NCBI GenBank assembly: GCA_963682175.1
Contig: OY821772.1
Location: 11,524,743 to 11,588,742 of the forward strand
Reading direction: 5' to 3'
From: Triglochin maritima
Lineage: Eukaryota; Streptophyta; Magnoliopsida; Alismatales; Juncaginaceae
DNA: 64,000 nt
The notes below the pieces were generated by a model. The model was given only the letters and a program-made list of their open reading frames with translations. It was not told the DNA's origin and searched no databases. How positions within the stretch are numbered: the first letter of the stretch is position 1; each line of letters starts with the position of its first letter. Positions 706-47,736 of this stretch are shown in pieces. The position numbers and the translations under genes are program-made.

Positions 706-2560
706 GAGAAATCATTTTGTTCCTTGTTTATGTTATTCGTCTTTTAGAAGTGTTAAGGAAGAGGCTCTTGGTCCTTAACCGTAGAGCTCTAAAAGATATT
801 GGTTTACATAAAGCAAAAGAGATTCTCAATCATGGTAATTAACATGAGATATTAATTACCGAGTTAAGATTGTCGTGTTGGTCATAGATCATTGTATCTC
901 TACAAGTGAGTGACAACACGGGTATACAAAAGAGGAAAATAGTACTTTTGTATACCGAATTGACCTAACAAGTAAAATATTATAGGAATGTGTTTCTGTG
1001 TCATTAATATTTTACTGTGTCCTTGGTCCTTTTATATGAGACTTATATCCGATCGCTTAAGGAGTTCTTAATTAGACTAGTGTCTTGAGCTATCAATGAG
1101 TGTAGTGTAAAGGCATTAGTTGGTTAAGTATAACTTTCGTTGGAGAAGATAGTTAGTCAAAAAATTATCATTGCCCCTCTTAATTGAGTGATGATATTAG
1201 TGAGCCCCTTGATAAAGCAAAGTTATAATGTGCACAATGTGATTTGAGTTAAGTCACATATTTATAACTAGCTTAAAGAGATCAAGAAATGAATACTAAT
1301 ACAAAGATGACACAATACTACTTTGTGTGTATTCTTAATATCATGAGGCAAGGGACGGACATAAGTGGTGCACTCCATCACTAAATGGATCGGGTTTTGG
1401 TTCGAGTGGAATTAAGACATCTAACTAATTGGGAGCTATAATGTGTAGCTAGATACCGCTTATAGCTTGTGATATTAAGCTCTTAATATCACTGCCAACT
1501 TAGTTTAGATCCTCGCATAGGTCACACCACAAAACTGAGAAACAAGAAATGGGGATTTTGAGTTCATAAGATGTGTCGGGTTTCATGTAGAAAATATGAC
1601 ACATGGGGTGAACAAGCAAAATCAAAATTATGTTGTGATTAATAACATAATTAGAATCTAAATTAAATTCATATGTGATGTAAATATTATGGGGTGTAAT
1701 GATTGATCATTACATAGGATAATATGTTACATAAGTTGCGAATTTACTACTAATCCCGAAATGTCAAATTTTGTAGGGGTTAAACCGAAATTTGACAAGT
1801 CTGCAGAACAGTGCTCCAACGGTCGACCGGTTAGCAGTAAACGGTCGACCGATCGAGCACGGTCGACCGGATGTGTCTCGACCGATAACAGGGAATTTTC
1901 ATCTTTTCGAACGGTCGACCGAATGTAATCGGTCGGTCGACCGAACATAGCGATGGAATAATTCCTGTTACGAACAGTCGACCGAGTTATTGAACGGTCG
2001 ACCGAAACATGGTTCGAGCGGTCGACCGAACCTCCAAACGGTCGACCGGTCCAGACGGTTTTCAGCAGAATTAATTTAAGAATTAATTAGATCATGCATG
2101 GAATTGGTCCATAATTGATTTAATTCGTGGCTAATATTATTTATTATTAAATAATGGATGGTTAGATGGAATTTTGCATGAAATCATGGGCAAGGGGTTG
2201 CACATGAATAGGTAATTTGGAGAGAGCTTATAAATACAAGTTTATCTCATTACCTCCTCAACTAATTCATTATTTTCTTATGCAAAATTCTCTCTCCATA
2301 ATTCCCCATGAAAATCCCTTAATTCTTAAGTTTAGTTTTAGTTCTTAAGAGATCATCTTCTCAAGAGAATTAAAGAGGGGTTAGTAATTAGATTCTAAAC
2401 CCTATCGGAGATTGAGAGACTAGCTTCCCTCTCTCCGATCTTGTTTAGAGTTTGGTGAATACTCGGAGGCATCCGGCGCAGCGAGGAGCATCCTCAACGT
2501 CTCCGAATCTTCAAGAAGTTTTAGAGAACTTCTAGGTATGAATTTCGGAGCCCATATTTA
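690..2560 (+). mobile_element. LTR-retrotransposon fragment inserted in the copia gag
   Basis: This non-coding stretch separates the gag segment ending near 690 from the gag tail at 2711. It has no long frame, but it holds a promoter-like region with a TATA box (TATAAATA, 2229-2236), a CT-rich leader after it, and a CGGTCGACCG palindrome array at 1820-2048. These are the traits of an LTR plus adjacent untranslated region. Exact ends and a target-site duplication could not be found, so the limits are approximate. The flanking text resembles the region between RNase H and the 3' LTR of copia elements, but no family is claimed. Confidence 0.45.
1820..2048. repeat. CGGTCGACCG palindrome array, LTR copy A
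   Basis: Eight perfect CGGTCGACCG boxes and at least two near-matches lie in 229 bp. Box starts include 1820/1842 and 1912/1934 (22 bp apart) and 1975/1995 and 2019/2039 (20 bp apart). The TATA box follows about 180 bp downstream. The sequence between boxes does not resemble that of the other arrays in this window. Confidence 0.85.
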
Positions 2561-2710
2561 TTTTAATAAAGTTTTGAAACTAGATATTGAAACAAATTGA
2601 TGCATGCATGAAATAAATCATAGAAAATTGTAAATTGATCCTTATTGTGCATAAAAATTTTCAAACAAATATGTACGATTAAACATGAAATCCTTCACAT
2701 TAATCATAGT

Positions 2711-2818
2711 TCTTCAAGTGAGTGGGCTCCTAAAAACAAAATAGTTTGGATTCCCAAAGCTAATATTCAAGCACCCAAAGTTGTTTGGGTACCTAAATCT
2801 ACACTTGTAGGTGCTTGA
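2711..2818 (+). pseudogene. Copia gag-tail fragment
   Basis: A short frame contains two IWVPK-like repeats (KIVWIPK and KVVWVPK), a signature of the linker after the zinc knuckle in Sirevirus and related copia polyproteins. It ends at a TGA (2816-2818). No protease, integrase or reverse transcriptase follows. The downstream sequence goes straight into polypurine tracts and the 3' LTR, so this copy lacks pol. Confidence 0.55.
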
Positions 2819-3066
2819 GGAGGAAATTGGTGGTGATCTGGCAAGCTTAAGAGTCAAATTCAAAGCCAGTTGCATCACAAAATGAGATTGGAACCAATTC
2901 AAAGCTTCAAGTGGGTATAAATTTCTTATCCTCTAATTTTTTCAATCAATTGGTTCTAGTCTAGGTCTTTATATGCTTAATTGACATATCTGATATTCAT
3001 TCATTGTAAATCTTTAAATTTGAATCACATCCAATGTTTTAGAGTCACATTTTCTAAATGGATGTC

Positions 3067-3445
3067 AAAGAGGGGGAAATGAATACATCACATGCTATAT
3101 TGTAATATTTGCTTGATGATTAATATGGGAGAATTAAGAATTGAACTTAATCGAAAAATCATATTCATATTGATAGGGGGAGCTTATTGAATATTATTTT
3201 CTTAGTGTGATGAAGTGCAAAATTTAGGGGGAGAACCTTCATTACAAGACATTCACAATTCTATGATTAACTCTTATAATTTTTGATGGCTGTCAAACGG
3301 GGAGAGATAATTAAGGGGTTAACTTTAAATTTGATATAAAAATTGAACAAAAACTATGCACATCCATTGGGGGAGCATTCTTATGCATAGTAATCAGAAA
3401 TTTCAAGTATTAAGATATAGGTTCCCATCATAAAAAAAGGGAGAT
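3067..3445 (+). other. Cluster of polypurine tracts before the 3' LTR
   Basis: Six G-rich purine runs lie in under 400 bp: about 3067-3080, 3172-3183, 3226-3235, 3299-3306, 3369-3375 and 3432-3444. Several share the core AGGGGGAG. The last one directly abuts the LTR. Multiplied polypurine tracts upstream of the 3' LTR are a known hallmark of Sireviruses. They prime plus-strand DNA synthesis during reverse transcription. Confidence 0.65.
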
Positions 3446-4820
3446 TCTTGGCTTTTTTGTCTTAATCTATGTTTTTATGATTTAATCAACCTAATCTTAA
3501 TTGTGATCATGTAGAGTAGCACACATGTTGCATTGAATATATATTATTCAGTGCTAACCTCTACAGGTGATCAAGACTCAAGGAAGAAATGAAATCAAGT
3601 CAAGACATGTAATCAAGTTTATTTGAAGACATGTAATTTGTATTTTTTTGAGTCTTAGGAACTTTGTGTAATTGAGCATGCTTGAGCTAAAAAGTACTCA
3701 AACACACACTAGGTTCCCTATAAAAGTCACACACAAATTTTCATAAAATTTGGACTTCAATAGATAACCCAAACTTAGACCGGAAAACACAAAACCAAAA
3801 CCTAAACAGTCTGCCCATATTTGGTCGACCGAAACACACCGTTCGATCGACCGAGTGATCATATATCCTGTTAGCGTTTGACTGCCCTTTTCGATCGACC
3901 GTCCCGACCTTTTCGGTCGGCAGAGTATCAACAAATTTCCGACCGTTTGTTTTGTCGTATATACCCAACGCTCGTATTTGTATTATCTCCAAATACTCCA
4001 AATACATTTTGTGTATCGGTCGATTGAGGACCTTGTTCGGTCGACCAAACCTAAGAAGACTTGACAAACCCAAACTGCATGTTAGTTTTCAGTCAACCGA
4101 GGAACTTGTTTGGGTCGACTGAATATGATCTTGTTTGTCAACCCCAAAGTGCCTGGTGTGAATCGGTCGACCGAACCTATCTCGGTGTTCGACCGATCAC
4201 TTAAATGTACCTAGATTATAGCCTTTGGCGGTCAACCGTTCTTTTACCGGTCGACCAAACCGAGTTCTAAATTGTCAAACGGTCGACCGAACAACCCGAT
4301 CCGGTCGACCGAACTTACTCAGAATTGGGTCCTGTTAGTTTCTATTTTGTGTATCTTACACAATCTTTACCCAATTCATCCCCAACGGCTATAATACCTT
4401 AGCAGCTTATAAATAGGTGTTCATTTGACACAATTAGACATCTCTTACACTTCCATTTGTCAAATACACATAAGAGAAACTCCCAAGTCTCACATTCCCC
4501 AAATCCAACTCTTTAAGCTTAAACATCCACATCTTAGCATCAATTCCACATCCTAAGCTAAATGTGATCAAGTTAGAGAGTGTGTTCCACTCAAGATCTC
4601 AGTTGTAAAGAAGCAAGGACTTCGGTGAAAGCCCGAAGTGTTCCTCTCGGATTGTGAGAGAAGAAAGTCAAGCTCACGAGGGTGTTCGTGGTGCTTGTTT
4701 TGTAGAAGTCTTAATCTCAGCCCGGAACGAGGTTGATAGTGAAGATGCGAGCAGAGCTCGAGGGAGATCGAGTGGAGCTTGCAAGAGAGGAAGTAGGCGG
4801 GAGGCCGAACCTCTATAAAT
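3446..4820 (+). mobile_element. Sirevirus-type 3' LTR, truncated (copy B)
   Basis: The LTR begins TCTTGG (a mutated TGTTGG) immediately after a polypurine tract. It aligns by eye with the copies at 6696-8254 and 13847-15393 over most of its length, including the first 100 bp and a TATA box at 4408-4415. It contains a decayed palindrome array at about 3822-4311, with three perfect boxes and many single-mismatch boxes, including 4280/4302 (22 bp apart). Homology stops near 4820, short of the normal end, where gypsy-derived sequence begins. Confidence 0.75.
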
Positions 4821-4878
4821 CCAACCCTGATTCAGACCAGTACCTGCTAGTGTCTGCACCCTGTGCTCTAGCATTCTT

Positions 4879-5628: not shown

Positions 5629-5631
5629 AGT

Positions 5632-6690
5632 TGTAACGCCCCCGATCTCGTGGGTACGCACGGTGGGGAAACAAAGTGAACTATCATGATCAGAGTCATC
5701 CACGACGACCGAAGAAGTTACAATAAAAGATGACACATACTAGACTTACTAAATAAAAACAAACATGGATAAACAAAAATGAGAAATAAACTGAAAAGGG
5801 AAATTATCCATATATGGAAAGTAATATAAAATACAATACATCGAGTTCAATATGGAATTACATCATAAAAAATGCAGAAGCAAAAAGATACTGGACAAAT
5901 CTGGTCGACGTATCTCTCGTGTACAGAACCCTCCAAAATTCCTCTAGTCTAACCGTTGTCGGAAAACCAAAGTACATGTGGCAAAAACAACAACGAGTAT
6001 GCATGAGTTTTCAATTAAGAAAAACCTTGTATGACTCGGGTCCAAAAATAGGATAAAAGGTTATGCATGAAACCTATCTACCACACATGCAAGGCAAAAG
6101 GGCCACAACTCTACATAGTTGTTCTAGACGATAACTATACATAGCTGTGACACTCAGGTTCCACCCGATGTGGTTTCTCTACATAGGAAACCAACCACCA
6201 TCCATTCTGCTCCAATCCACAAACAGGTCACCTGAATGTGTGACCCATAGCTCGGCACACAACGATCTTCAAGATTGACACCCCAACCCGCGACAAGTGA
6301 CCTACATGATTCCATCGCGAGGTTGGGAATGCCAATCCTGTAGAAAATGACAGCATGACTTTCAAGGTCTTATCTTATGCCTGATATCTCTACATAGAGG
6401 TGTTTCAATTAGGCACGTCGGCCCCTCAACATCAGTTCCCAAATTTATTTTGTTAACCATTATGCAAATGCAAGCTGTCTATAGGGTTGCATCCAATTTG
6501 TAGCAAGAAGCTAGACTCATGCCATTGCAATGAGCAAAAGGACTACCCCAAGACAATTAAGCACAATATAACAGAAGCTAACACTTGTGCAACAAGCAAA
6601 CAACAACAAAAACACAATCAGTTGACTATATCAAATCGACACAATTAAGCACAACACTAAGCATTACTATCTACGGGTCAAGAAACAATA
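5632..6690 (-). mobile_element. Gypsy 5' LTR, segment 1
   Basis: The sequence starts TGTAACGCCCCCGA on the plus strand, a typical terminus of plant gypsy LTRs read in reverse, next to the primer-binding site. No frame of note was found. It contains several diverged copies of a CTCTACATAG-like word between 6110 and 6400. The LTR is interrupted at 6691-8259 by a solo LTR and appears to resume beyond it. Its far end could not be identified. Confidence 0.55.
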
Positions 6691-6695
6691 GTCAT
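6691..6695. repeat. Left target-site duplication GTCAT
   Basis: GTCAT lies directly before TGTTGG and is repeated exactly at 8255-8259, directly after the terminal TACA of the solo LTR. Confidence 0.85.
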
Positions 6696-8254
6696 TGTTG
6701 GCTTTTTGGCCTTAATCTATGTTTTGATGATTTAATTAACCTAATCTTAATTATGATGATGTATAGTAACACACATATTGCATTGCATATATATTGTATT
6801 GTGCTAACCTCTACAGGTGATTAAGACTCAAGAAAGAAGGAAATGAAGTCAAGACATGTAATTAAAGCTAAATCGAAGACATGTAATCTTGATTTATTTT
6901 GAGTCTTAAGAACTTGTGTAAATTGAGCATACAAGAGTTAAAAAAAACCAATCACTTACACACTAGGTTCCCTGTAGGAGTCACACACAAAATCTCATAT
7001 CATTTGGACTCCATTAGATCACCCAAACCTTAGTCGGAAATCACTTAAAACCTAAATCCAGAATTCCTGTGTGAAACCGGTCGACCGAACCAGTTCTCAG
7101 TTCGACCGGTTTATAATAGACTCTCCACAGTGATTTTACCGAACTCTACCGGTCGACCGGTTCTACCTTTTCGGTCGACCGATCCCGGATTTTAATATGA
7201 CCGTTTTTCTTGTCGTATTCCTATAACGGTCGTATTCGTATAAAACAAAACTTAACCCCAAAATACATTCGGTAACCGGTCGAACGAAGACCTTGTTTCG
7301 GTCGACCGGTTGAACATATTTTCAGAAACCAAATTCCCTGCTATCGGTCGACACATTTCTCGTTCGACCGATTGACCTTTGTCTCAACCGAATCCCCTTC
7401 TCGGTCGACCGCCCCATACTTTGGTTCGACCGATTCACTTAAGTAGAGTTAAGTTCTAGCTCGTTTGTCCGACCGAATATTCTTTTGTTCGACCGTTCTC
7501 TTTGAAATCAAGTTAACGGTCGACCGGTTTACTAGTTTCGGTCGACCGGTTCTGGACAGATTTGCAGCCCGATTTTCTGCTTTGTGTATCTTGCACAAAA
7601 CCCAATCAAATCTTGTCCAAACGGCTAGAAATCTTTAGGAGCTTATAAATAGAGGTTCACACTTAGTTTTTCACAAGATTTCACAACTCCAAAGTGTCAA
7701 ACTTATAGTGAGATTTTCCACAACCTCAAAGCTCCAAATTAGCCATCCAAAGCCTAATTTCCACATCCTTCATCAATCATCATACTAGCAATTGTTGTGC
7801 TCAATTAGAGAGTGAGTTCCACTCAAGTTACCATTGTTGTAAAGTGAGCAAGGGTCTTGGTGAAAGCCCAAGACAAAGAAGCAAGGATTTCGGTGAAAGC
7901 CCGAAGTGATTCTCTCGGTTTGTGAGAGGTGGTTCCAAGCTCGGCGAGGGTTGTTCGCGAGCTTGAAGACTTGTAAAAGGCGTTGCTCCCGGCCTGGAAC
8001 GGGGAGGCATAGTGAAGACGCAAGAGGGGCTCAAACGGAGATTCGAGAGGTGCTTGTAAGAGAGGACGTAGGCGCGGCCGAACCTCTATAAAACCGACGT
8101 GTCTTCTTTGTGGTTTGCATTACCTTCTACTTGTGTTTGATTTAGTTTTAATTTTTGCTGCATTTCTTTGATCGATCAACCAAGTAGTAAATTAGGGTTT
8201 AAGTGGGATTAGCTTAATAGTGATTAGTGGACCCATAACCCACACAATCCTACA
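6696..8254 (+). mobile_element. Solo LTR, Sirevirus-type family (copy C)
   Basis: This 1,559-bp unit runs from TGTTGG to CCTACA, is flanked by identical 5-bp GTCAT repeats and has no internal coding region, so it is a solo LTR left by recombination between the two LTRs of a full element. It is the only complete copy of this LTR family here and defines the family's ends. A TATA box (TATAAATA) is at 7644-7651. A palindrome array occupies 7078-7548, its last box ending 96 bp before the TATA box. The region after the TATA box contains short GGTGAAAGCCC-type repeats. It is inserted in the gypsy LTR. Confidence 0.9.
7078..7548. repeat. CGGTCGACCG palindrome array, copy C
   Basis: About seven pairs of perfect or one-mismatch boxes occur. 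Box starts are 7078/7099, 7150/7172, 7277/7299, 7345/7361, 7402/7423, 7466/7486 and 7517/7539. Six of the seven within-pair distances are 20-22 bp (one is 16). Pair-to-pair steps range from 51 to 72 bp, with one gap of 127 bp. Confidence 0.85.
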
Positions 8255-10805: not shown

Positions 10806-11193
10806 TGTAACGCCCCGAAACAACGGAAAATTTAAAACTTTAAACAGATTAAGAATTAACACAGGGGTCGTCACCAAACCACGAGTTCATATATATATAA
10901 TATGAAAAGCTGTACAATACAAGAGTCAAGGATGATTACAACCCAACACAAAAGATATACAACACATGTACAAGGGAAGATCATCCACCTCGAAGAACCA
11001 AAAAGTGACAGGATCTGGTCTGGGTGCTCCTGTCCGTAGTCACCACCTCCTACTGACGCGTACGACCTGACATAAAACATGAATATGCCTGAGTTTCCCG
11101 TGGGAAACCCCGTATGCCAAACCCCTAAAATATGAACATAATATGCGTAATGAAACATGAAATGAAAATGCAGTAAAAGCACATCAATCCCCT

Positions 11194-11430
11194 GTGCACA
11201 CAAGGCACCGCCGGAACATCATCGGCCACGGGTCTCAAGGGTCCTCTCACCCCAACCCCTCAATCACACGTGCACACAAGGCACCGCCGGAACATCATCG
11301 GCCACGGGTCTCAAGGGTCCTCTCACCCCAACCCCACAATCACACATGCACACAAGGCACCCGCTCCTCAGAGCCACAACAACAACGTGTACACACGGCA
11401 CCCGCTCCTCAGAGCCACAACACGACCCTC
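11194..11430. repeat. Minisatellite in gypsy LTR copy D
   Basis: Units starting with GTGCACACAAGGCACC (or a close variant) begin at 11194, 11270, 11346 and 11387, giving spacings of 76, 76 and 41 bp. The first two 76-bp units are nearly identical. The long open frames here come from the repeat and its high GC content. The reverse-complement equivalent is at about 28005-28230. Confidence 0.8.
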
Positions 11431-11545
11431 CTCTCAGGCCGGCAATGTCTGTACCGTCGCCCCAAAAAAGGCCGGAGACCCGTTGCCCTCGAGGCGGATC
11501 CAACAACACACGGCACAAGCATCCATATGCAAAACAGTGCCCAAA

Positions 11546-12061
11546 CGGTCGAACGGAAGAACCCAAACGGTCGACCGAACACCACAACTATTCCTTAGAA
11601 AAACCGAATTAACGTCCAACCGGTCGAACGACTCTCAAAACACGGTCGACCGAAATCCAACAGGGAAAATCCTCTCTCTCTCAAAAAGCACCAACGGTCG
11701 AACGACCCTCAGATCACGGTCGACCGAAAACAACCAGGGAAATTCCCCAACAAAACCGCACTACACGGTCGACCGAAACCACACTCCCGGTCGACCGGCA
11801 AATAAGTTAACTTAAACGTCGGTCGGACGAAGTCAACGAGCGGTCGATCGTTTAGATGGTCAACGCCCCCAACCGACCTACAACAGTGCTTTCGGTCGAC
11901 CGGCAAAGGGGACCCGTTCGACCGAAAACACACAGAACATTTTTCCCTTGGTAAAACGTACCACCGGTCGACCACTCGAAGAGTATTGTTCGACCGGTGC
12001 AAGGGTTTTCCGCCCAAAATACTCTACAACCGGTCGACCGAACCAACCCGCCGGTCGACCG
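11546..12061. repeat. CGGTCGACCG palindrome array, copy D
   Basis: Eight pairs were located. Box starts are 11546/11568, 11621/11643, 11695/11717, 11766/11788, 11820/11841, 11893/11915, 11965/11987 and 12031/12052. Within-pair distances are 22 or 21 bp without exception. Pair-to-pair steps are 75, 74, 71, 54, 73, 72 and 66 bp. Eight boxes are perfect; most others differ at one base. Confidence 0.9.
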
Positions 12062-12340
12062 ATTATAGTGCAGAATGCTGCTGCACGGGTCCGACGAGCC
12101 CTCCGGCCTACCGTCGATCACCCCAACACCCACCAAAGCATAAGTGAGCATCAAAGCAAAGCTTGACATACCTTAAGGCTTGAAGAAGCCTTTGAAGAAT
12201 CCCGGCATGCGCCTCCTCGCAAACTTTTCTCCTCCGGTGAGAACCCAACCGTAATCACCTCGACTCCGGCAACTCCAGATCTCCTCCGAGCTTCGCCGGC
12301 CTCACCTCCGCGTCTTCCTCAGCTGGACGAGAGGGATCGA

Positions 12341-12364
12341 GAGAAAGAGAGAGAGAGAGAGAGA
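12341..12364. repeat. GA microsatellite
   Basis: A run of GA dinucleotides with one interruption lies in gypsy LTR copy D. The CT equivalent is present at about 26535-26596 in copy F. Confidence 0.8.
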
Positions 12365-12549
12365 CACGCGTGAGAGAGTGAGAAATGAGTGAGGAGAGAG
12401 GGAGAAAACCAAAATTAATAAACCTCTCCTCCTTCAATCTCCACCATCCACCACATCCCTTCCCTTCAATCTTAGCCCTCCATCTCCACCTCTTCTAATC
12501 CACCACCTAAACACAATAAACCCAAATAATCAAGGGTTAGGATGTAACA

Positions 12550-13095: not shown

Positions 13096-13846
13096 CTCGC
13101 CATCAACACCAACCCTTGTTCTTACCTTCCGAAGTCGTTGATGAAGTTCTTCAAACTTTACTTGGTTTAGTCATTTAATGAAGATATTTGTCACTTGCTC
13201 CTTCGTACTAATAGACTTCATAAGAACTTCGTCTTGTAGAACCTTCTCCCTTAGAAAATGGTAATGAACCTCCACATGTTTTGCCCTTGCATGAAAGACT
13301 AGATTTTATGCCAGATGTATGGTAGATTCATTATCGCAATGCAGCAACACTGGATAATCTACTAGCTGATGAAGATCTTCTAATAATTGTTTCAACCACG
13401 TACTCTCTTGGGCGACCATCGCTCTAGCCATATACTTTGCTTCTGTAGTTTACAGTGAGATAGTAGGTTGTCTCTTCCTACACCAAGAGATTGATGTAGA
13501 ACCAAGACTAAATACATATCTGATGGTCAAACTTCGTGTGTCGTGGTCCCCTACATAGTCAGCATCGTATACCTGACTAGCTTTTGATCTTCTATATTTT
13601 TGTATAAATGACCAAGATCAATAGTACCTTTCACGTACTTCAGTATTTTTCTTACTGCTTCTAAGTGAGGTTTTTTCAGTGCATGCATGTATCAACTTAC
13701 AACTCCAACGACGAAAGATATATCAGGTCGAGTCATGGTTTAGTCGATAAAACTACCTACTAATTATCGATACATCATTGCATCCACCAAATCATTGCCT
13801 TTACATGCACACAATTTGGCCATTTCCTCAGTTGGGGGGTAGATAT
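13096..13846 (-). pseudogene. Ty1-copia reverse transcriptase/RNase H C-terminus
   Basis: On the minus strand the fragments [31 protein letters not shown] followed by AQESTWLKQLLEDL, CDNESTIHLAKN and RAKHVEVHYHFLRE occur in order. These are standard copia motifs of the connection domain and RNase H. Internal stops and small frameshifts break the frame. Only the C-terminal part is present because the Sirevirus-type LTR at 13847 cuts it; the upstream part of pol is missing. Confidence 0.75.
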
Positions 13847-15393
13847 TGTTGGTTTTTTTTGCCTTAATCTATGTTTTGATGATTTAATCAACCTAATCTT
13901 AATTGTGATCATGTAGAGTAGCACACATGTTGCATTGCATATATATTATTCTGTGTTAACCTCTACAGGTGATCATGATTCAAGGAAGAAAGGAAATCAA
14001 GTCAAGACATGTAATTTATATTTCTTTGAGTCTTAGGAACTTTGTGTAATTGATCATACTTGAGATAAAAACTACTCAAACACACACTAGGTTCCCTATA
14101 GAAGTCACACACGAAATTTCACACAATTTGGACTTCAATAGATCACCCAAACTTAGACCGGAAAACACAAAACCAAAACCTAAACAGTCTGCCCACATTC
14201 GGTCGACCGAAACAGACTGTTCGGTCGACCGAGTGATCATATATCCTGTTAGTGTTTAACTGCCCGAGTTCAGTCGACCGAGTATCAACAAATTTTCGAC
14301 CGTTTGTTTTGTCGTATATACCCAACGGTCGTATTCGTATTATCTCCAAATACCCCCACATACATTTTATGTATCGGTCGACCGAGGACCTTGTTCGGTC
14401 GACCGAACCTAAGAAGACTTGACAATCCCGAACTGTATGTTAGTTTTCGACCGAGTATCAACTATTTCCGACCGTTTGTTTTGTCGTATTATACCCAACG
14501 GTCGTATTTGTATTATCTCCATATACCTTAAATACATTTAGTGTATCGGTCGACCGAGGACCTTGTTCGGTCGACTGAACTTAGAAGACTCAACAAACCA
14601 GAAGTGTCGTCGGTTTTCGGTCAACGTATTCCTTGTTTTGGTCGACCGAATATGATCTTGTTTGTCAACCCCAAAGTGCCTGGTGTGAATCGGTCGACCG
14701 AACCTATCTCGGTGTTCAACCGATCACTTAAGTGTACCTGAGTCAATAGCCTTTGGCTATTGACCGTTCCTTAACCGCTCGACCGAACCTTAATCTAAAT
14801 TGCCAAACGGTCGACCGAACAACCAGATCGAGTCGACCGAACTTACTCAGAATTGTGTCCTATCAGTTTCTGTTTTGTGTATCTTACACAATCTTTACCC
14901 AATTCATCCCCAACAGCTATAACTCTTTTGGAGCTTATAAATAGAGTTGTAAAACACATTTTAACACAACTCTCCCACTACTATTTGTCCCTTACAATAG
15001 AGAGAAAGCTCTAAACAGTCGAAACATCAAACCTTCCACACTTTAGTCTTAAATCCTATTCTCACTCAAATGTGCTCAAGATTAGAGAGTGTTGTTCCAC
15101 TCATTGATTGTCAAAGAAGCAAGGGTCTTGGTGAAAGCCTAAGACAAGAGTATAGACTTCGGTGAGAGCCCGAAGTATCCCTCTCAGATTGTGAGAGGAG
15201 GAGCCAAGCTCGGCGAGGGTTGTTCACGAGTTTGAAGATTGTAAAGGTGTTCTCCCCTTGCCCGGAACGGGGAGTGGTTAGTGAAGTCGTGAGCGGAGCT
15301 CAGTGATCCGAGCGGAGCTTACAAGAGAGGACTAGGACCCGGATGGGGTGCCAAACCTCTATAAAAATCTCCCGACTCCTTGTGGTTTGCATT
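13847..15393 (+). mobile_element. Sirevirus-type LTR, right-truncated (copy E)
   Basis: It begins TGTTGG inside the copia relic and matches copies B and C along its length, including a TATA box at 14936-14943 and the post-TATA GGTGAAAGCC repeats. Homology with copy C ends at a TTTGCATT word near 15393, about 130 bp before the family's true end, where LINE-associated sequence starts. The right-hand flank is lost, so no target-site duplication can be checked. Confidence 0.8.
14200..14839. repeat. CGGTCGACCG palindrome array, copy E
   Basis: Pairs of perfect or near-perfect boxes start at 14200/14222, 14375/14396, 14547/14568, 14618/14639, 14691/14713, about 14755/14776, and 14808/14830. All pairs are 21-22 bp apart. 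The steps 14547-14618-14691 are 71 and 73 bp. The last box ends 97 bp before the TATA box, essentially the same as in copies B and C. Confidence 0.85.
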
Positions 15394-35430: not shown

Positions 35431-38400
35431 CTAAACTACGGACTGCACTACAATAGGACTCCTTACATGATGTTTTCCATCAGACCACACCAAAGCACCA
35501 AATTGATAGTCCTTCCCCACATTATCTATTGCCTTAACGGTTACCTTGAACTTCCTTCTTTCACCAGATCTCTTGAATCTCATTTTCGACGGTCGAACCG
35601 ACACTGCGAACCCCTTTGGTGCCTCGACCTGAACTTTGTAGACGCTTGGTATACCAACATTCGTCAAAATACGAGACACTGTGGCTCGTTTTCTGAAATG
35701 TAAGATTGTGATGGAAGGGTTGTTCATGTTCATTATTTTCTTAGGGTTGTGGTGACACAAGTGCGGCCGGACTGAGAACGTCTTCATTTCTGTAGCATTG
35801 TAGCCTAGTGCGCACAAGAAGTGCTTGTAGTGTTTGTTTCTGAGATCGTAGACCAAGCCAGGGTTTGTTGCTAGGTTCGGTCGAATGTGGCCTGCACCAT
35901 AGCTAAAAGGGTCTGTAGCTTGGAAAAGTTCATCCTTAATGAGTCCCCCTTCGTTGTCCCGATCGGTAGCTGAAACAAGTAAAAGATCATGAACTTCTTT
36001 AGCTTAAATGCCCCCACAATGATATCGGTTTTTTCAAATGATTAGATCAATGCTCACGCTCACATATAAGGTACTTGTGGAACAATATGTTTTGTTGAAA
36101 TATTATAGTCATGTTATAAAATACTTGTGTTACTATAGTCTATAAATTGTATGTAATCTTAAGATGAAGAGGTACAAAATATAGTTATACTGCACTCTAT
36201 GATATCGTTGTGTAGCCTCCTATCTTGTCGTACAGAACCATTAATCCATAGGATATTGTGCTAGAAACTTCTATTGTCGACCAATATTATTGTGGCCCTC
36301 TACCATACTTGTGTACAACTGTGACTCCAGCAACTAATTTGACTAAAAATTAATTCGAGTTTAGTTACCAACCAGTAGTCATGATAGCTGACCGAATCAT
36401 CCCGGGGGTCCAATGAGGGTGAAGAGATTTGAGAAGCCCGACTACACCAGCCACATGAGGGCATGCCATTGATGTTCCACTCATCAAATTGAACGCCGGA
36501 AGGCCAACATCGGGGTCAGCAAGGTTCGGTGCTTGGCTGACCGAAGCGAGAATTTCCACTCCGGGTGCCGTAACGTCCGGCTACGTACAAATACCCAAAC
36601 AACAAAGTTGTACATAAAAATATCCGAATATATACTAGGGATGGAATTTGATGTGTTTCTTAATTATCGTTCAATTTCTTTTGGGTTATATCGTGAAATT
36701 TTAACTAGGGATGGAATTTGATGGAATCAACCTAATGGAGGTAAATCCATGATGTAATTGTGATTGGTTGTTACCTTGAGTATTTGGGTTGTGAGGAGGT
36801 TTGGTCCTCTAGAAGTGAAGAGTGCACTTCGAGGATTTGGCTTGGTCCCATACACGGTTTTGGCGGGTGATATTGAGCCTAAGGGTGATCTGTAAATGTC
36901 AATGCATCCATAATTAATTCTCACGTTTAATACAACATTTTTCAATATATTTTTAAATCTTCCATCATTCCACAGCTACAAATAATGGAGTACTGAATGT
37001 TGCAACCTTAAACGAGTCGATCTACAAATTTATGTAAGCGTAGATATGGTTGTTACAAAGAGATAGTAGGAGTTAATTAATTACAAGAATATCGATTAGG
37101 AGAGTTTGTTGTGAGTCAACACAAGGATTATATACCTGGACGAGTTCAAATAAGAATACAAAATTTTCCCCTCCGAGAAACCAATGTGGATGGTTGGGAA
37201 ATGATTTGGGTCAGCGAACAGCTCCTCTCCTTCGGATGTGGTGTCGACGTTTACGAGTACCATTCCGGCCCCGCCGGCACGATGAACCTCTCGCGCCTTG
37301 TCCACCCGAGCCACTAGTCCTCGCGCGCAAACCACGATCTTTCCTTTCACTTTCTCCGAATCTAGAGAACCTAAGACGCATAAATGGCTGCATTTGAAGC
37401 ACAGAAATAAATTAGGTAGGCCTTCACTAACAAAATGCACAACACTTGTTCTTTTTCTTCATATTATAGGTTAAAGAGAAGAAAAAAGAGAGAAATCACA
37501 ATCATCTAATTTGATTTATTTTATGTTTTTCCTCAAGATGACTAGAAAATGAAGAAAGTTGTGGTGCCAACAAGAAATCAAATTAGAAAATGTGTTAGTG
37601 ACTAGTGAGTCATATTAGAAATGGAAAGTACATCCAACATTATCGGCTGCTTACGAGTAGTTCTTGCTCACGCCAGTAGCGCCAACGTCCTCTGATTTAA
37701 TCATGTGATACATCTGATTGGCTTCTAGTTTTCCGTGGGCCAAACTTCTTCCCTGCATCCAATTAAGCAATAATAATCTCATTCTAATAGCATATTATAG
37801 TTGAAGATTACACGTTAAATTAATTATATATTGTTAAACCAAAATTACATAAAACCTTGAAACAGTTATATCGAAAATTTCAAGTTCCAACTCTTTTGTA
37901 TCCTTCACATATTTGGACAAAAAAATTCACCATTTTCAAGTCTAGTGAAATTAAATTGCTTAAAAAAAAGAAATTATTGTAACAATATATGTTTAAGCTA
38001 GTGGTGAATCCAAAACTAACCTCTAGAGTTTTTCCATTTCCAATGGTGAGCTGAGAGACAAAATCCCTATCAGTTGTACTCGCTCCGACCGTCAAAATCC
38101 ACGGCGCAACGTTGCTGACCGTCCCAGGTTCCGGTCCACTGTTACCGGCCGAGCACACCACTGGAATCCCCCTTCGAACGGCGTGGAAAGACCCAATGCC
38201 AATTGAGTCCTCAAAGTAGTCCTTCAAGGGTCCACCTACAGAGAGAGAAATAACGTCGACACCATCATGAATTGCAGCCTCGAAGGCAGACAGAAGGTCG
38301 ATGTCGTAGCACCCGCCGTCATCTTTGGTAATTGGTGGCCAGCAAACCTTGTAGGACGCTACCCGGGAGCCGGGTGAGCCGCCTTTGGCGGTGCCGTTGG

Positions 38401-40965
38401 CTTGGTAGAAGAAGTTGGCATTTGGGACGAAGAAGCCTCCGGCGGTGGAGAGAGTGTGGGTCCCGTGGCCCTCCACGTCGCGAGGTGTGTAGAAAGTGGA
38501 GTTCACCTTGGGCTCCTCTAATCTTGGACCTTGGTTGAAGTATCTTGCACCTATTAGCTTCCTAAATTTCCACGAGAAAGACACACACATATATATATAA
38601 TTAAATAGTCGAGTTGAGAATTTTCAAATATTGAAACTTCACGCATTTAATTACATTGGTTAGTTCATACATAACAATATCAATTTTACCTATAGTATTA
38701 GTGTATTACTGACAACAAAGGTTGATATTTCATGTATTCTTTCCAATTTTGTACTCGAACAATGGAAATCCATTTTTCTCAACTATAGACTTCACTTCAC
38801 TTCTTTTCTTCTCTCTTCACTTCTTATTGTTCTTTTATTTTCTTTCCACCTTTTGTCTTTAAATTAAAAGACCATAACCTCAAGTTGTTAATAGAATATA
38901 CGGAAAGGTACGAACTATTCAATGTACTTAATCGAGCGCAAGAGTTGTGGATGTTAAATTGGTGAAAGAATCAACCCGTATATGCATATAAGCTTATTTA
39001 CAGTAGTTCGTATCCCAAAAAAAAAAGTAATTAGAAGAAGGTAGGTAAGCTTTTCCCCCCTAAAAAGGCACTCTATCATATATATATATATATATATATT
39101 AATCAGGATTCTGGAGTATGACTAATAGGAAGTATTTTTGTTAACATTATCAACAAGGATATAGAAATATAAGAAATAGTTCACCACAACATATGGAGGG
39201 AGTAAGTACGCACTTGTTGCAACGAACACCTTCGTCTGTGTTGTTTTGACAATAGCCCTTCCATCTTCTTGGAACTGGTCCCATTTTGTCGTCGTTAAAG
39301 CTTTGTGATTCGGGCCATACACCTGCAAACATACGAATAATTTTTTAAAGGCAAAATAAACTATTTTTTTTGTGAATAAACAATACGTTAATGTACAACA
39401 CTACGTTAGAAGTTTTACAAACTGTGGTTAGTTCAATTTATAGATCTTTCATCCTGGATCAACCAGAACCTTGGACAAAGCCCCAACATGGTAGCATCTT
39501 TAATTACAAATTGAGATTTAATTAAGCAGTGTTAAACTTTTCCTGTAAAAATATCCCCACTACTTGAGGCAGCACATCTTTGAATACCACATGTTTTTTA
39601 TTTTTTTTCATTTTTATTTGTATTTTACAACGAGAACAAAAGTTTACGTTACTTCCAAATATTTCTTTTTCGCGTGTAAAGTAAAATCTAAAGTATATCT
39701 CATCAGCATCACTAAAACATTCCAAATGTAGCTATATGTCAAATCAATATGTTACCAAGTGCTCGCACTTATTCCTTTATTTATTTTGTTAGGGGATAAG
39801 TTTAACCCAATTACGGCCCTTAATTACTATCCATTTATATCTACAATTTTGGGAGCTAAAATCATTTTGGATCTAAATAATTAATCCACACACAATGTCA
39901 AATTATTCTAAATTTTTATATGACTTCAGTTTAATAATCTGTTCAAAATATGGTAAATAAACAAATATAACAACCTGTATCAAAATTCGCAATAATGATA
40001 TCTCGACCGAAAGAACTTTCCGGCCAAATGGAATTATGTGGAATCCTTCCTCTACTCTCCATTCCAAGAAAATCCCATGAATGGGTCGTGTGCAATTTCT
40101 TCTTTGTGTTGGGAAAAACGGATATTACTCCAGGGTACTCTGTAAAATCAAACACGTACATCAAAATTATATATTGAGAGAGACAATTAATTAAATTCGA
40201 ACATGAATAAATATGATTATGTTTTACTTGAGAGTTCATCTGCTTCTTTCTCGTTGAGAATTGCAGCAAATGCATTAATGTTTTTTGTGTAGGAGTGAAC
40301 TATAGCGTCTTTTGCCTTTTCGGGGCTACACGTAAACAATAATTCAAATATGATCTGAAAATTCTTTTAGTATGAAACAAATCACAAAAATAAGAAAAAT
40401 CGTTACCCTCCAAGTATGGATCCTAAGAGTTCGGTGTGAGAATTCTTTGCTAGTTCGTAGTCGGCTGATGTTGGAGAAGGTCCATAAGAGTGGTCACCCA
40501 AATAAACTATGTATGACTGCATGTCAATTACCAAATGATCAAAGTAGCACACATATATAAGCCCAGATATAGATTAGCTTTTTTCCTCTTGAACGATCCA
40601 ACCAGGATTCTCTTTGCAGATCATTAATATTTTGTATAAAAAAAACGTTGTTATAGGGCACATGGATTATTATTAAAAGGATTTTAGACTATACATATGG
40701 CTTGATTACCAAAAAAGACTGTGTTTAACATTTGCATTTTTGTAGATGCAACCATTCATCTTTAAGTTAATCAAATGGTTTGACCATTTACTGCTTTTAA
40801 CGGATAACTTTAGAGCACATCAAATTTATTAAAAACCAAAACAAGAAACTTGGAAACTTTTTTTGCAATAAAAAATTAAAATAACGACACAAGACTTACC
40901 ACCTTGCGTGCATCAATCGGGGTTTGGAAGAGGGAAAAAACAACAAAGAGGAGAAAGACTGCCAT
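35431..40965 (-). CDS. Subtilisin-like protease, SBT5.3/AIR3-like (gene 2)
   Basis: A second secreted S8 protease, on the minus strand. Exons in transcription order are 40965-40900, 40516-40407, 40325-40228, 40139-39975, 39322-39214, 38561-38021, 37752-37655, 37387-37136, 36889-36775, 36580-36373 and 35969-35431. They join in frame to 766 codons. Residues 1-19 form a signal peptide. The I9 prodomain begins SYIVYLGDHSYG. Catalytic residues are Asp145 (in FDTG instead of the more usual LDSG), His215 (GHGTH), the Asn of SAGNSGP, and Ser555 (SGTSMACPH). An Fn3-like domain ends the protein. Exon lengths match gene 1 exactly or by multiples of three, so the two are duplicates. All introns use GT-AG; exon 1 is ended at GTG|GTAAGT. 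A microsatellite (AT)n at about 39077-39100 lies in intron 5. Confidence 0.9.
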
Positions 40966-41745: not shown

Positions 41746-42708
41746 TGTTGGAATTTGGTTTATAATTGTTAATACAGGAAAACAGGGAGAAACAGTCGAC
41801 CGGAACTTAAGTCACGGTCGACCGATTTACTCCAGGAGCCTGGAGGCTCGGAACATATCGAGGAACGGTCGACCGGTTCGGGGAAGTCGGTCGACCGAAA
41901 ACGGCCAGTAGATTTGGAGCTCGGATCTTTTTAAGATCCGGTCGACCGGTGCTGGGCACGCGGTCGACCGAAAAGTGACAGTATATACGAGACGAAATTC
42001 AGCACAACAATCGGTCGATCGGTGTTGGACACGCGGTCGACCGAATTCGTCCAGTAGCTTCAGGCGCTATCCAGCAGTGCAAAACGGTCGACCGGTGTTG
42101 GACACGCGGTCGACCGAAATTGTCCAGGAGCTTCGAGCGTTGTTCAGCAGCGCGGAACGGTCGACCGGCTATGGGCGAGCGGTCGACCGAACGATGACAG
42201 TTACGCGAACTAACCGAAGTTCGGTCGACCGAAGGGAAATTCCGGTCGACCATTTTCAGACAGTTATGCACGATCTGAATTATTCTTTGTACGATTTTAG
42301 CCCATTATAAATAGGATTTTCGCCCTAATCTTGTAATACAACATACAATCTTTATTTCCTTGAGAGAGATTAGGCTAGAGAGAGATCTAGAGTGCTTTGG
42401 GAGACGCATTGCTTCCAAATTGTGTAATCTCGGAGACTTCTCTTGTTGGAGAAGAACTTCAAGGAAAGGAAATCCGCAGGAGACCCCCCAAGGACGTAGC
42501 CATCTTGCCGAACCTTGTAAAATCGCGTGTGTTGTGGTTTGCTTCAGGTGTGTTGATTGATTGCTTGTTATTTCCATCTTAATTGTGTTTACTTGTTGCA
42601 TTGAGTTTGGGAGAGGGTCAGAAGTTATAGTTTCCGCATTCAATATTCGATTTTCGTGGTGCGTGTAATCCGTGTCGAGTTAGTGCATCGTAGATCCCCC
42701 TCCGAACA
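41746..42708 (+). mobile_element. Tork 5' LTR
   Basis: Runs TGTTGG to CCGAACA. The promoter has a TATA box at 42306-42313, only 54 bp after the last palindrome box. The downstream leader holds a GAGAGAGATTAGGCTAGAG segment typical of the transcribed R/U5 part. Confidence 0.95.
41793..42252. repeat. 73-bp periodic paired palindrome array (Tork 5' LTR)
   Basis: Seven pairs of CGGTCGACCG boxes start at 41793/41815, 41866/41888, 41939/41961, 42012/42034, 42085/42107, 42158/42180 and 42222/42243. The first six pairs are spaced exactly 22 bp and the last 21 bp. The first six pairs repeat at exactly 73 bp (five steps); the last step is 64 bp. Eleven of the fourteen boxes are perfect. Spacers are related but diverged, so this is a tandem repeat whose boxes and spacing are better kept than the rest. 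Confidence 0.95.
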
Positions 42709-42710
42709 GC

Positions 42711-42722
42711 TGGTATCAGAGC
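42711..42722 (+). other. Primer-binding site (initiator tRNA-Met)
   Basis: TGGTATCAGAGC, two bases after the LTR end, complementary to the 3' end of initiator methionine tRNA. Confidence 0.9.
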
Positions 42723-42738
42723 TTTGGTTGCACTTTCG

Positions 42739-45700
42739 ATGGCGGAAGAAGCGCAGAATTTTCGGGTGGAGAAATTCACCGGAAAAGGGAACTTCTCAAC
42801 ATGGCAACGGAGGGTTCGTGCGTTGATGTCTCAGACGGACGGGCTATTGCTGACGTTGGATGGGATTGAGAAGAAGCTGTCGAAGATGACCGACGAAAAG
42901 TGGGAGAGTCTGAATCTCCGGGCTATAGGAATCATTGAGTTGTGCCTCTCGGATGATTTGCTTTTCGAGGAATCGGCGAAGACCGCAGCAGAATATTGGA
43001 AACTTCTGGAGGAGAGGTTCATGAAGAAGAACCTTAGCAACAAGTTGAATCTGAAGCGTCAGCTGTACATGCTTCGGATGAAGGAGAACACACCGTTCAT
43101 TGAGCATCTCTCGGTGTTCAATAAGTTGATAGCTGATTTGACTCAGCTTGAGGACAAGATGGAGGATGTAGACAAGGCAATGTTGTTGTTGACGTCACTG
43201 CCGGACTCGTATGAGAATTTGGTGAATACGATCATATATGGCAAGGATTCGTTGGTGTTGGAGGACGTCAAGGGCACGCTGATCTCCTACGATGCAAGGA
43301 GGAATTCTGGTAGTAGCTCTTTCGAGAAGGGTGAAGGATTGATCGCAGCATCGGAAAGGGGCAGGACGGGTAACAAAGGAAGAAGCAACGGAAGTGGCCG
43401 GTCCAAATCAAAGGGGAGATCCTTTGAATGTTTTTTCTGCAAGAAGGTTGGTCATATGAAGCGTGATTGTAGGGCCTTCAAGAAGTCGCTGCAGAAAGGG
43501 AAAGACGGGTACAATTCCGCCAGTGTGGTGAAGGAGAAGAACGAAGTCAACGTTCTAACAGTTTGCGCTGCAGGTATTGACAAATCATCATCTGGATGGA
43601 TTTTGGATACAGGAGCATCATTTCACATGTGCCCGGACAAGGAGTGGTTCACATCCTATGAGCCACTGAAAGGAGGGATCGTTGTTATGGGCAACGATGC
43701 GCCGTGCACTACCGTCGGTATTGGTTCTGTACAGTTCAAGATGTTCGATGGGTGCATTCGAACGCTGACGGGTGTGCGTCACGTACCGGAGTTGAAGAAG
43801 AATCTGATTTCTCTAGGAGAGCTTGATACTCTCGGGTGGAGATGGTCCGGCGGGGACGGAAAGATTAAGGTCACTCATGGGGCGATGACAGTGATAAAGG
43901 GAACCAAGGTGGGCAACTTGTATTGGATGCTCGGGAATGCAGTAGCAGGAAAGGGTGCAGCAAATGTTGCACAAGACGAAGACAACATTGCACTTTGGCA
44001 TATGAGACTTGGTCATATGTCGGAAAAGGGTTTGTGTGAGCTACACAAACAGGGAATGCTGAAGGGTGTTAAGAGCTGCAAATTGGATTTTTGCAAGTAT
44101 TGTGTCTTCGGAAAACAGCACAGGATTCGATTCAAGACGGCTATCCACAAGACGAAGGAAATTCTGGAGTATGTGCACTCAGACGTCTGGGGACCGGCTC
44201 AGGTTCGGTCAAAAGGTGGAGCCGAATATTTCATCACATTCATAGACGACTTCTCAAGGAAGGTATGGGTTTATTTTCTGAAAAATAAATTTGAAGTCTT
44301 TGATAAGTTTAAAGCATGGAAGGCCCAAGTAGAGAAAAGTACAGGAAAATTTGTTAAGTACTTACGGACAGATAATGGAGATGAGTACACCTCAAGGGAG
44401 TTTGCAAGTTTCTGTGAGAAAGAAGGCATCACGAGGCATTTCACTACACCGCGGAGTCCGGAACAAAACAGCGTAGCTAAAAGGATGAACAGGACACTAT
44501 GTGAACGGGCAAGGAGCATGAGGCTTCATGCAAATCTGTCGAAGGATTTTTGGGCGGAAGCAGTAGATCTTGCAAGCTACTTGGTAAATATCTCACCGTC
44601 ATCAGCACTTGAATTAAAGACGCCTCAGGAAGTATGGACGGGTGAGCTATTTGACTACTCGAGGCTTAGGATATTTGGATGCAAAGTCTATGCGTTGGTC
44701 GATGAGACACAACGGTCGAAGCTGGATTCGAAATCAAAGGAGTGTATATTCCTTGGTTACGATAGGGCAGTGAAAGGATATAAGCTTTGGGATCCGGTGA
44801 GCAAGAAGGTACTCCTACGGAGTAATGTGGTCTTTGATGAGACAAGTTTGCTCAAGGGCCTTGAGGAGAAAGAGCAGCAAGAGGTTCCCATGCAGGATGA
44901 CGAAATTGAAGTTGGGGTCACGACTTCAAGGGAAGAATCGAATCAAGAAGTTCAGCAGGAAACAATTGACTCACAAGTAGAGGAGGAAGCTGAGCAAGAG
45001 AGTATTGCTCAAGGAAGACAGAGGAGGATCACAAAGGCACCGGTGAGGTATGGTCACGATGATGCTAGTATTGCGTTTGCACTTGTTACCGAATGTGGGG
45101 ACCCTTGCACATTCGAAGAAGCTATTGAGCAGGAGGACAGGAACAAGTGGATGGTGGCCATGACCGAAGAGATGGAGTCTCTTCATAAGAATCAAACTTG
45201 GGAGTTAACGGAGCTTCCCAAGGGAAAGCGCGCAATTGGGTGCAAGTAGATCTTCAGGAAGAAGGAATGGTCATCTCCTATGGAGGAGATAAAGTATAAA
45301 GCAAGGTTTGTGGCAAATGGATATGCTCAGAAGGAAGGGGTCGATTACAACGAGATCTTCTCACTCGTTGTAAAGCATACCTCTATTAGAGTGTTGTTAG
45401 CTATGGTAGCTATGGACAACATGGAGTTAGAGCAGATGGACGTGAAGACAGCTTTTCTTCACGGGCACATAGAGGAAGAGATCTATATGAGGCAGCCGGA
45501 TGGGTTCATCGCACGAGGCAAGGAAGGACAAGTATGCAAGCTGAAGAAGTCCCTCTATGGACTCAAGCAATCACCGAGGCAGTGGTACAAAAGGTTCGAT
45601 TTATTTATGATTAATAATGGTTTTGTACGTTGCAATTATGATAGTTGTGTATACTTGCGGAGTCTTGGAGACGGTACACACGTGTTCTTGCTTTTGTATG

Positions 45701-46668
45701 TGGATGACATGTTGATCGCGGCTAAGGAGATGAAGCATATAGATGATCTCAAACTGAAGCTTCACGGGGAGTTTGAGATGAAAGACCTCGGAAGTGCAAA
45801 GAAGATTCTCGGTATGGAGATCTCTAGGGATACCGAGAAAGGTGAAATTCTGCTCACTCAAAGGAGTTATATCCGGAAGATACTCGAGAGGTACAATCTC
45901 GAGAATGCCAAGCAGGTGGCCACACCTATTAGTGCTCACTTCAAGCTCTCGTTGAAGTGCAGCCCCTCTACTGAAAAAGAAAGGAGAAATATGGAGAGAG
46001 TTCCATATGCTAGTGCAGTCGGATCCGTTATGTATGCTATGATCTGCACTAGGCCAGACATTTCACACGCAGTCAGCCTCGTGAGTCGTTATATGGCTAA
46101 CCTAGGAAAAGAGCATTGGGAAGCGTTGAAGTGGCTGTTGAGGTACCTGAAGGGAACCATGGATGTTAGCTTGAAGTTCACCAAAGATGGAGCACAAAGG
46201 CAGGTGGAGGGATACGTTGATTCAGATTATGCTGGAGATTTGGATAAGCGGAGGTCCACAACAGGGTACGTGTTCACTTTGGGTGGAGGTCCAGTGAGTT
46301 GGAGATCGGTTCTCCAACATACTACCGCGTTGTCTACGACGGAAGCGGAGTACATGGCTGTTGTCGATGCCGGGAAAGAAGCTATATGGTTGAAGGGTTT
46401 GGTTAGCTCTTTGGGGATGGAACAAGAAGTGACCAAATTGCATTACGATAGTCAAAGTGCAATTTATCTAGCCAAGGATCAGACGTTTCATTCAAGGACC
46501 AAACATATTGAAGTAAGGTACCACAGGATCCGGGAGTGGATCGAAGAAGGGGAGGTTGTTCTCCAGAAAATCGACACGAGTGAGAATCCTGCAGATATGA
46601 TGACTAAGGTCGTCAATCGGGAGAAGTTCGAGTTATGCTCGAAGCTTCTCAATGTCCTCAGAGAGTGA
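42739..46668 (+). pseudogene. Tork gag-pol polyprotein with one in-frame stop
   Basis: Translation is taken from the ATG at 42739. The domains in order are: Gag with a CCHC knuckle (CFFCKKVGHMKRDC, residues about 231-245); aspartic protease (LDTGAS, about 287); integrase with an HHCC finger (HMRLGH to CKYC, about 420-455) and DDE core (HSDVWGP about 480, TDNGDEY about 543); reverse transcriptase (YVDDML about 987); RNase H (VDSDYAGD, STTEAEYM). A TAG at 45247-45249 replaces the tryptophan codon expected after AIGCK in reverse transcriptase. The glutamate expected in the integrase VAERMN motif is lysine (VAKRMN, near 44480). Both lesions should block autonomous transposition. The rest is open to the TGA at 46666-46668. 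Confidence 0.92.
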
Positions 46669-46758
46669 GAAGGATAAGCGCTCCGGGGGGTAGCGCTAAA
46701 GGTGCTTCTAGGAAGCACAAAGGATGCGGAGGCAAAGAAGGCTAAGGTAACAATTCTA

Positions 46759-46773
46759 AACCAAGGTGGAGAT
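46759..46773 (+). other. Polypurine tract of the Tork element
   Basis: AACCAAGGTGGAGAT directly precedes the right LTR and is the plus-strand primer site. Confidence 0.75.
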
Positions 46774-47736
46774 TGTTGGAATTTGGTTTATAATTGTTAA
46801 TACATGAAAACAGGGAGAAACGGTCGACCAGAACTTAAGTCACGGTCGACCGATTTACTCCAGGAGCCTGGAGGCTCGGAACAGATCGAGGAACGGTCGA
46901 CCGGTTCGGGGAAGTCGGTCGACCAAAAACGGCCAGTAGATTTGGAGCTCGGATCTTTTTAAGATCCGGTCGACCGGTGTTGGGCACGCGGTCGACCGAA
47001 AAGTGACAGTAGATACGAGACGAAATTCAGCACAACAATCGGTCGACCGGTGTTGGACACGCGGTCGACCGAATTCGTCCAGTAGCTTCAGGTGCTATCC
47101 AGCAGTGCAGAACGGTCGACCGGTGTTGGACACGCGGTCGACCGAAATTGTCCAGGAGCTTCGAGCGTTGTTCAGCAGCGCGGAACGGTCGACCGGCTAT
47201 GGGCGAGCGGTCAACCGAACGATGGCAGTTACGCGAACTAACCGAAGTTCGGTCGACCGATGGGAAATTCCGGTCGACCGTTTTCAGACAGTTATGCACG
47301 ATCTGAATTATTCTTTGTACGATTTTAGCCCATTATAAATAGGATTTTCGCCCTAATCTTGTAATACAACATACAATCTTTATTTCCTTGAGAGAGATTA
47401 GGCTAGAGAGAGATCTAGAGTGCTTTGGGAGACGCATTGCTTCCAAATTGTGTAATCTCGGAGACTTCTCTTGTTGGAGAAGAGCTTCAAGGAAAGGAAA
47501 TCCGCAGGAGACCCCCTAAGGACGTAGGCATCTTGCCGAACCTTGTAAAATTGCGTGTGTCGTGGTTTGCTTCAGGTGTGTTGATTGATTGCTTGTTATT
47601 TCCATCTTAATTGTGTTTACTTGTTGCATTGAGTTTGGGAGAGGGTCAGAAGTTATAGTTTCCGCATTCAATATTCGATTTTCGTGGTGTGTGTAATCCG
47701 TGTCGAGTTAGTGCATCGTAGATCCCCCTCCCAACA
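46774..47736 (+). mobile_element. Tork 3' LTR with palindrome array
   Basis: Same length and layout as the 5' LTR, offset 5,028 bp. The array spans about 46821-47280 and the TATA box is at 47334-47341. Several of the roughly 21 differences from the 5' LTR fall inside palindrome boxes, mostly C/T or G/A changes at CpG positions, as expected from decay of methylated cytosine. Confidence 0.95.

Follow-up and report, generated by a model that had tools for sequence, protein, structure and literature searches.

In a 64,000-nucleotide stretch of the Triglochin maritima genome (assembly GCA_963682175.1, contig OY821772.1, positions 11,524,743 to 11,588,742 of the forward strand; hereafter the window), the 10-bp palindrome CGGTCGACCG recurs in paired, helically phased arrays that are carried by the long terminal repeats (LTRs) of four unrelated groups of retrotransposons. 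A first-pass annotation of this DNA had pointed to the box and to its sharing among LTR families; the spacing of the pairs, their helical phasing and a bias of substitutions towards the inner half-sites are features beyond that annotation, and we judge the pairing at 21–22 bp to be a stronger feature than the sharing of the box itself. On balance, we think it fairly probable that the arrays are operators, set in phase with the helix, on which a dimeric DNA-binding factor of the host acts, and that several LTR lineages have come to acquire them.

The window holds 64 exact copies of the box (mean of 0.00 in 100 dinucleotide shuffles; mononucleotide expectation of 0.014), in agreement with an earlier by-eye estimate of about 55–65 perfect copies, and 104 copies when up to one mismatch is allowed (0.35 in the shuffles, with a maximum of 3), which rules out a chance origin of the clusters. 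It is by a wide margin the top-ranked 10-bp palindrome of the window, the runners-up being two AT repeats, at 9 copies apiece. The 104 boxes all fall within eight LTR-associated clusters and none in the remainder of the 64 kb. The four LTRs that had been described as box-free (48234, 29051, 51060 and 52806) indeed carry no box at up to one mismatch; among them, only the 48233/58423 pair was detected as a repeat. The observed/expected CpG ratio is 1.47–1.84 in the arrays, 0.81 in the whole window and 0.67–1.16 in the linkers alone, indicating that the boxes themselves create CpG islands. The cluster limits given earlier were corrected: B contains only three exact boxes (4164, 4280 and 4302), the one at 3822 carrying a mismatch, and when boxes with two mismatches are counted array F spans 26830–27864, while D extends up to 12113 and E up to 14839.

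With the boxes masked, BLAST joined B with C and E, D with F, and T1 with T2, leaving four groups (A; B/C/E; D/F; T) and no cross-group match inside LTRs at E 0.01; one match of 33 bp shared by C and T lies outside both LTRs. A single family for all box-bearing LTRs is thereby ruled out, and the initial proposal that they belong to unrelated families holds. That all boxes lie inside LTRs, as had also been claimed, is firm for T1 and T2 (an LTR pair with a target-site duplication, TSD) and good for A and D (best candidate TSDs), whereas for the remainder it follows from polypurine tracts directly upstream in the case of B, from homology to B for C and E, and from homology to D for F.

Element T is a complete copia element of 5991 bp (41746–47736) with the TSD ATAAG and LTRs that are 97.8% identical (5′ LTR, 41746–42708, TATA box at 42306; 3′ LTR, 46774–47736, TATA box at 47334; both on the + strand). 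Between them lies gag-pol (42694–46668, + strand), with two open frames separated by one in-frame stop in pol; it encodes copia gag, integrase and RVT_2 domains, as expected of Ty1/copia, and the best listed homologues of the polyprotein are ∼65% identical. The Sirevirus hallmarks that we looked for in T (a long linker with several polypurine tracts, a CA/ATTGG junction and large size) were not found; pol ends at 46665 and the 3′ LTR starts at 46774 with no GGGGGA between, and the LTR junction reads CA/GCTGG. T is thus a classic copia by structure. Tork, the lineage name given to T in the first-pass annotation, and Tekay are putative lineage labels. Arrays T1 (41793–42252) and T2 (46821–47280) each comprise 11 exact boxes and 3 with one mismatch, in a 22/51-bp alternation.

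LTR A (649–2697, + strand; TATA box at 2229) is a solo LTR with the ends TGAAGG..CCTTCA, lying in a gag relic that reads as Sirevirus-like by eye; its TSD, CATTA, is the best among seven candidate pairs, and the gag frame is open across the empty site. Its array (1820–2048) has 8 exact boxes and 1 with one mismatch. LTR B (3438–4825, + strand, borders approximate and 3′ part not resolved; TATA box at 4408) has the look of a Sirevirus 3′ LTR, judging from the polypurine tracts clustered upstream: four of the seven GGGGGA of the window lie within 2700–3445, and a further tract sits at the border of the LTR. Its relatives C (6691–8121; TATA box at 7644) and E (13839–15393; TATA box at 14936), both on the + strand with approximate borders, are placed beside B by LTR similarity, and either could be a solo LTR or a truncated one; no G4A or GGGAGA polypurine tract was found upstream of either, apart from one G-rich run seen by eye at the border of E. 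The arrays of the three contain 3 exact and 6 one-mismatch boxes (B, 3822–4311), 7 and 2 (C, 7078–7548), and 7 and 4 (E, 14200–14839, including a 172-bp tandem duplication).

The assignment of D and F to gypsy is weaker than had been claimed: they come without coding sequence, and what speaks for gypsy is an LTR end resembling that of a box-free neighbour, G. We consider them probable gypsy LTRs. D (10806–12549, − strand by its inferred sense) is a solo LTR with the TSD TGCAA, the better of two candidate pairs, and its array (11546–12113) has 8 exact boxes, 6 with one mismatch and more with two. F (26423–28398, probably + strand, approximate borders; TATA box at 26518), a relative of D in inverse orientation, is truncated and has no convincing TSD; its array holds 9 exact boxes, 15 with one mismatch and a 468-bp tandem duplication. 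Of the open reading frames (ORFs) in D, F and their surroundings, the subset that was tested gave no Pfam domain above cutoff. LTR G (5632–6690) has a primer-binding site and adjoins a decayed gypsy-like gag, of which two of four pieces match (a zinc knuckle at E 1.8e-4 and a weak Retrotrans_gag at E 0.018); its similarity to D is weak (E 0.63). Box-free G near box-bearing D offers a possible natural comparison.

The boxes are typically paired 21–22 bp apart and the pairs often recur every 73–75 bp, spacings that favour whole turns of the DNA: the intervals run 22, 51, 22, 51 and onward in T1 and T2, and 22, 53, 22, 52, 22, 49, 22, 32, 21, 52 and onward in D. Intervals of 21–22 bp make up 2/8 of the consecutive ones in A, 6/13 in B, 5/12 in C, 8/16 in D and 7/13 in T1, an excess over random placement with a 10-bp minimum (p = 0.078 for A, 0/20000 for B and T1, 0.00015 for C and 0 for D; E, F and T2 were left out of this test). 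When up to two mismatches were permitted and overlapping boxes merged, multiples of ∼10.5 bp were favoured in all eight clusters (mean cosine 0.55–0.78), partly because 21–22 bp is itself two turns; the intervals outside 20–24 bp, pooled from A, B, C, D and T1, still gave a mean cosine of 0.54 (0/20000).

Substitutions within pairs concentrate at one inner half-site position of the boxes. Across 59 pairs spaced by 20–24 bp, homologues included, the inner, dyad-equivalent positions were changed 12 times (position 8 of the left box) and 14 times (position 3 of the right box), compared with once each for the outer equivalents. The bias persisted in 30 representative pairs (four of the five A pairs and every listed B, C, D and T1 pair, with E, F and T2 excluded as homologues), in which positions 3/8 were changed 13 times on the inner and twice on the outer side (p = 0.0017). 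Ten of these 13 inner changes are one and the same G-to-T, a change that CpG decay does not produce; the other three are G-to-A.

In A, B, C, E, T1 and T2, a TATA box lies 54–181 bp downstream of the last box. What we infer from these sequences is a host-encoded protein whose binding would benefit the element. One dimer of a sequence-specific DNA-binding protein would occupy each 10-bp palindrome, a dimer being suggested by the palindromy; two such dimers on boxes 21–22 bp apart, a distance of two helical turns, would lie along one side of the double helix, as the spacing suggests, and would cooperate, as suggested by the relaxed inner half-site. Recurrence of the pairs at about seven turns could then build up a large assembly close to the promoter of the LTR. 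Sirevirus-type B/C/E, classic copia T, probable gypsy D/F and A would each have gained or exchanged the array, and the spacing would be kept for the benefit that the bound factor brings to the element, most probably by activating transcription or by maintaining access to the CpG-rich LTR. In the copia groups, the short distance to TATA hints at activation; F permits other roles. Selection on geometry is suggested by D: in a comparison of the spacers and flanks of 22 pairs (22-bp spaced only, from A, B, C, D and T1), the 12-bp spacers of D resembled one another no more than shuffled sequences do (0.283 vs 0.303), and the spacing is nonetheless kept. LBD/LOB proteins, considered as possible binding factors, found no support in the literature searched.

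The box itself is not new. CGGTCGACCG is printed as a repeated motif of a Vitis Sirevirus in Table 3 of Bousios et al. (2010; PMC2829016), which, in the parts available to us, calls such motifs Sirevirus-specific and absent from classic elements. No report of a box shared across LTR lineages was found in searches of openly licensed papers. The arrays here resemble the repeated-motif (RM) boxes of that paper in being palindromes with a CGG-CCG core, present in many copies, forming CpG islands and located in the upper LTR upstream of TATA; A, B, C, E, T1 and T2 all have a CGG-CCG palindrome in at least eight copies (one-mismatch boxes counted) in the LTR upstream of TATA. They differ in that the box also occurs in the classic copia T, in the probable gypsy D/F and in LTR A. 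Neither pair spacing nor helical phase was found in the text of PMC2829016 at our disposal, the single match to 'helical' being a reference title. Maize Sirevirus LTRs similarly have a palindrome-rich regulatory region whose palindromes are small RNA (sRNA) hotspots (Bousios et al., 2016, as related in the portion seen of PMC5311732), although with another motif and in another host. Length-variable CpG islands are also described in the LTRs of Del gypsy elements and argued to be tied to host silencing (PMC4029996), but 'palindrom' has no match in the text consulted, and eudicot Del groups are without an island. A soybean RAC paper containing GGTCGACC was discarded, the sequence being a primer. 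VANDAL DNA transposons carry short-motif arrays bound by one protein, VANC, which the transposon encodes. The likeness to the arrays in the window lies in a single short motif that, in our reading, would likewise be bound by a single protein; the difference is that only copia gag-pol domains were found in T.

A scan of a genome collection returned 102 stretches with the box pattern. Of 107 loci screened for layout, 16 had 21-bp runs (L004, L017, L031, L048, L051, L067 and L079 were inspected box by box), and pair-to-pair distances of 68–78 bp occurred only in L061 (JAFAOU010000159.1, positions 1–3156), a contig labelled as belonging to an Acidobacteriota metagenome-assembled genome (MAG), isolate CP_BM_ER_20. 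Its boxes form pairs at 21 bp with pair-to-pair distances of 74 and 94 bp, its G+C content is 0.44, it has no open frame of more than 124 residues, and its better matches to the window (E < 0.05) all lie within box arrays. This pair layout, shared with the window by DNA from a different source, favours the operator reading. An LTR-like end and 25 gag-like residues were seen by eye, with no match in Pfam, and a plasmid search using part of the contig gave no match. L061 is probably plant LTR DNA contaminating a bacterial MAG. Barbacenia macrantha was among the plants sampled in PMC9938248, and the isolate code may refer to external roots of this species. As a separate observation, L004, L017, L048 and L067 (contigs of one Odoribacteraceae MAG) and L051 are bacterial 21-bp tandem repeats built on the CGGTCGACCG box, an open frame in L051 reading through them as a 7-residue repeat; on another bacterial contig (L090, 5703–5775), three box-like palindromes spaced by 42 and 21 bp around the end of long open frames are possibly a bacterial operator. 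In viral contigs, exact box pairs with spacers of 11–12, 16–17 and 6–7 bp were found in 3, 0 and 2 stretches, respectively, no excess worth claiming; a wider pattern gave 103 stretches, some with dense or 25-bp-periodic boxes (L177, L180, L181 and L192), and none was recognised as plant-like in a screen by G+C and box density only.

Several observations weigh against an operator array. By individual cluster, the phasing of the long intervals is weak (p = 0.12 for A, 0.035 for B, 0.09 for C, 0.010 for D and 0.008 for T1), and the five 51-bp intervals of T1 derive from tandem copies; the regular 22/51 of T is partly tandem duplication, its spacers being 0.49 identical vs 0.28, and the spacers of B also exceed shuffles (0.358 vs 0.258, p = 0.01). 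Spacing in A is looser (18, 20, 24 and 41 bp). B, C and D account for the half-site bias at positions 3/8, to which T1 adds a single case and A none; over all positions, mismatches number 22 inner vs 11 outer (p = 0.06), and the one degenerate box of L061 is mutated in its outer half. Finally, no clear TATA was found in D, and that of F lies ∼310 bp before the first box, so that the array would be transcribed there.

As to origin, a single LTR lineage, perhaps a Sirevirus, may have given rise to the array, which recombination or gene conversion would then have carried into others before the spacers diverged; such module exchange is compatible with operator function, and we hold it as a tentative possibility. 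It stays live because flanks are slightly alike and short motifs are shared between groups. The first-pass statement that flanks differ between families mostly stands, yet the 15+15 bp pair flanks of different groups resemble one another more than shuffles do (0.313 vs 0.266, 0/300), and those of D are weakly alike among themselves (0.356 vs 0.313, p = 0.018); five 8-mers (0.38 expected) and 18 7-mers (6.6 expected) are present in three groups; and all six window copies of ACTTAAGT lie in arrays, 2–4 bp after a box (one each in C, E, T1 and T2, two in F). Against this, the similarity of 12-bp spacers from different groups is not significant (0.251 vs 0.239, p = 0.08), the k-mers that two or more groups have in common fall short of the shuffled number for 6- and 7-mers and come near it for 8-mers, A, B and D lack ACTTAAGT, and the box-masked comparison linked no LTRs of different groups.

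We regard it as unlikely that the boxes are a target of host silencing, bound by a repressor or matched by sRNAs and persisting through duplication of the array and not through benefit. Apart from the sRNA hotspots in maize Sirevirus palindromes mentioned above, the box substitutions bear traces of what methylated DNA predicts: among 40 one-mismatch boxes, 20 carry CpG transitions (12 have a transversion at position 3/8 and 8 other changes), and of the 21 differences between the two LTRs of T, six, all of them transitions, fall in boxes, where five affect CpG positions and the sixth affects inner position 8. A harmful site should, however, vanish, whereas unrelated lineages hold up to ∼30 boxes, with the spacing kept while the spacers of D diverge. 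It is very improbable that the two boxes of a pair base-pair in a transcript, the spacing being a hairpin loop. When 4 of the 59 pairs were folded as RNA, two from T folded well (z = −5.5 and −5.2) but two from D did not (z = −1.0 and −1.6); moreover, inner substitutions mostly strike one partner only and would break the stem, in A, B, C, E and T the TATA box comes after the array, and the helical phase between pairs is left unexplained. Neutral, minisatellite-like growth fits the tandem duplications of T (73-bp unit), F and E, but is a most unlikely source of the periodicity, as it leaves the unrelated spacers of the D units unexplained and is insufficient as the sole reason why four LTR groups that are unrelated share the box.

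The window contains further repeats and genes. Directly after the box-free LTR copy at 58423–59018 is a tandem array of a different palindrome (59302–59492; unit of ∼44 bp with CCGACGTCTATTCTTAAAGAATAGACGTCGG), and directly after the copy at 48233–48844 an 82-bp tandem repeat with 91% matches that carries GGACTGAAATTTTC (48983–49225). Two diverged subtilase-like gene copies lie in inverse orientation at 21006–25839 and 35431–40521, an exon of one having best listed protein matches of 46–48% identity. Open frames at 15916–17109 resemble the endonuclease region of a long interspersed nuclear element (LINE) by eye; the piece 16558–17109 had no Pfam match.

Palindromic LTR boxes have so far been viewed as a Sirevirus trait, and the protein that binds them is not known. 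A box and a spacing rule that unrelated LTRs have in common would implicate one host factor on which several retrotransposon lineages depend. The spacing rule provides a concrete 32-bp box-pair probe for this factor as well as a grammar for searches of plant genomes, and renders the question of LTR regulation directly testable. More speculatively, a single conserved factor of flowering plants, binding as paired dimers to phased CGGTCGACCG boxes, might be a common target of copia and gypsy LTRs in monocots and eudicots, on which unrelated genomic parasites would have converged.

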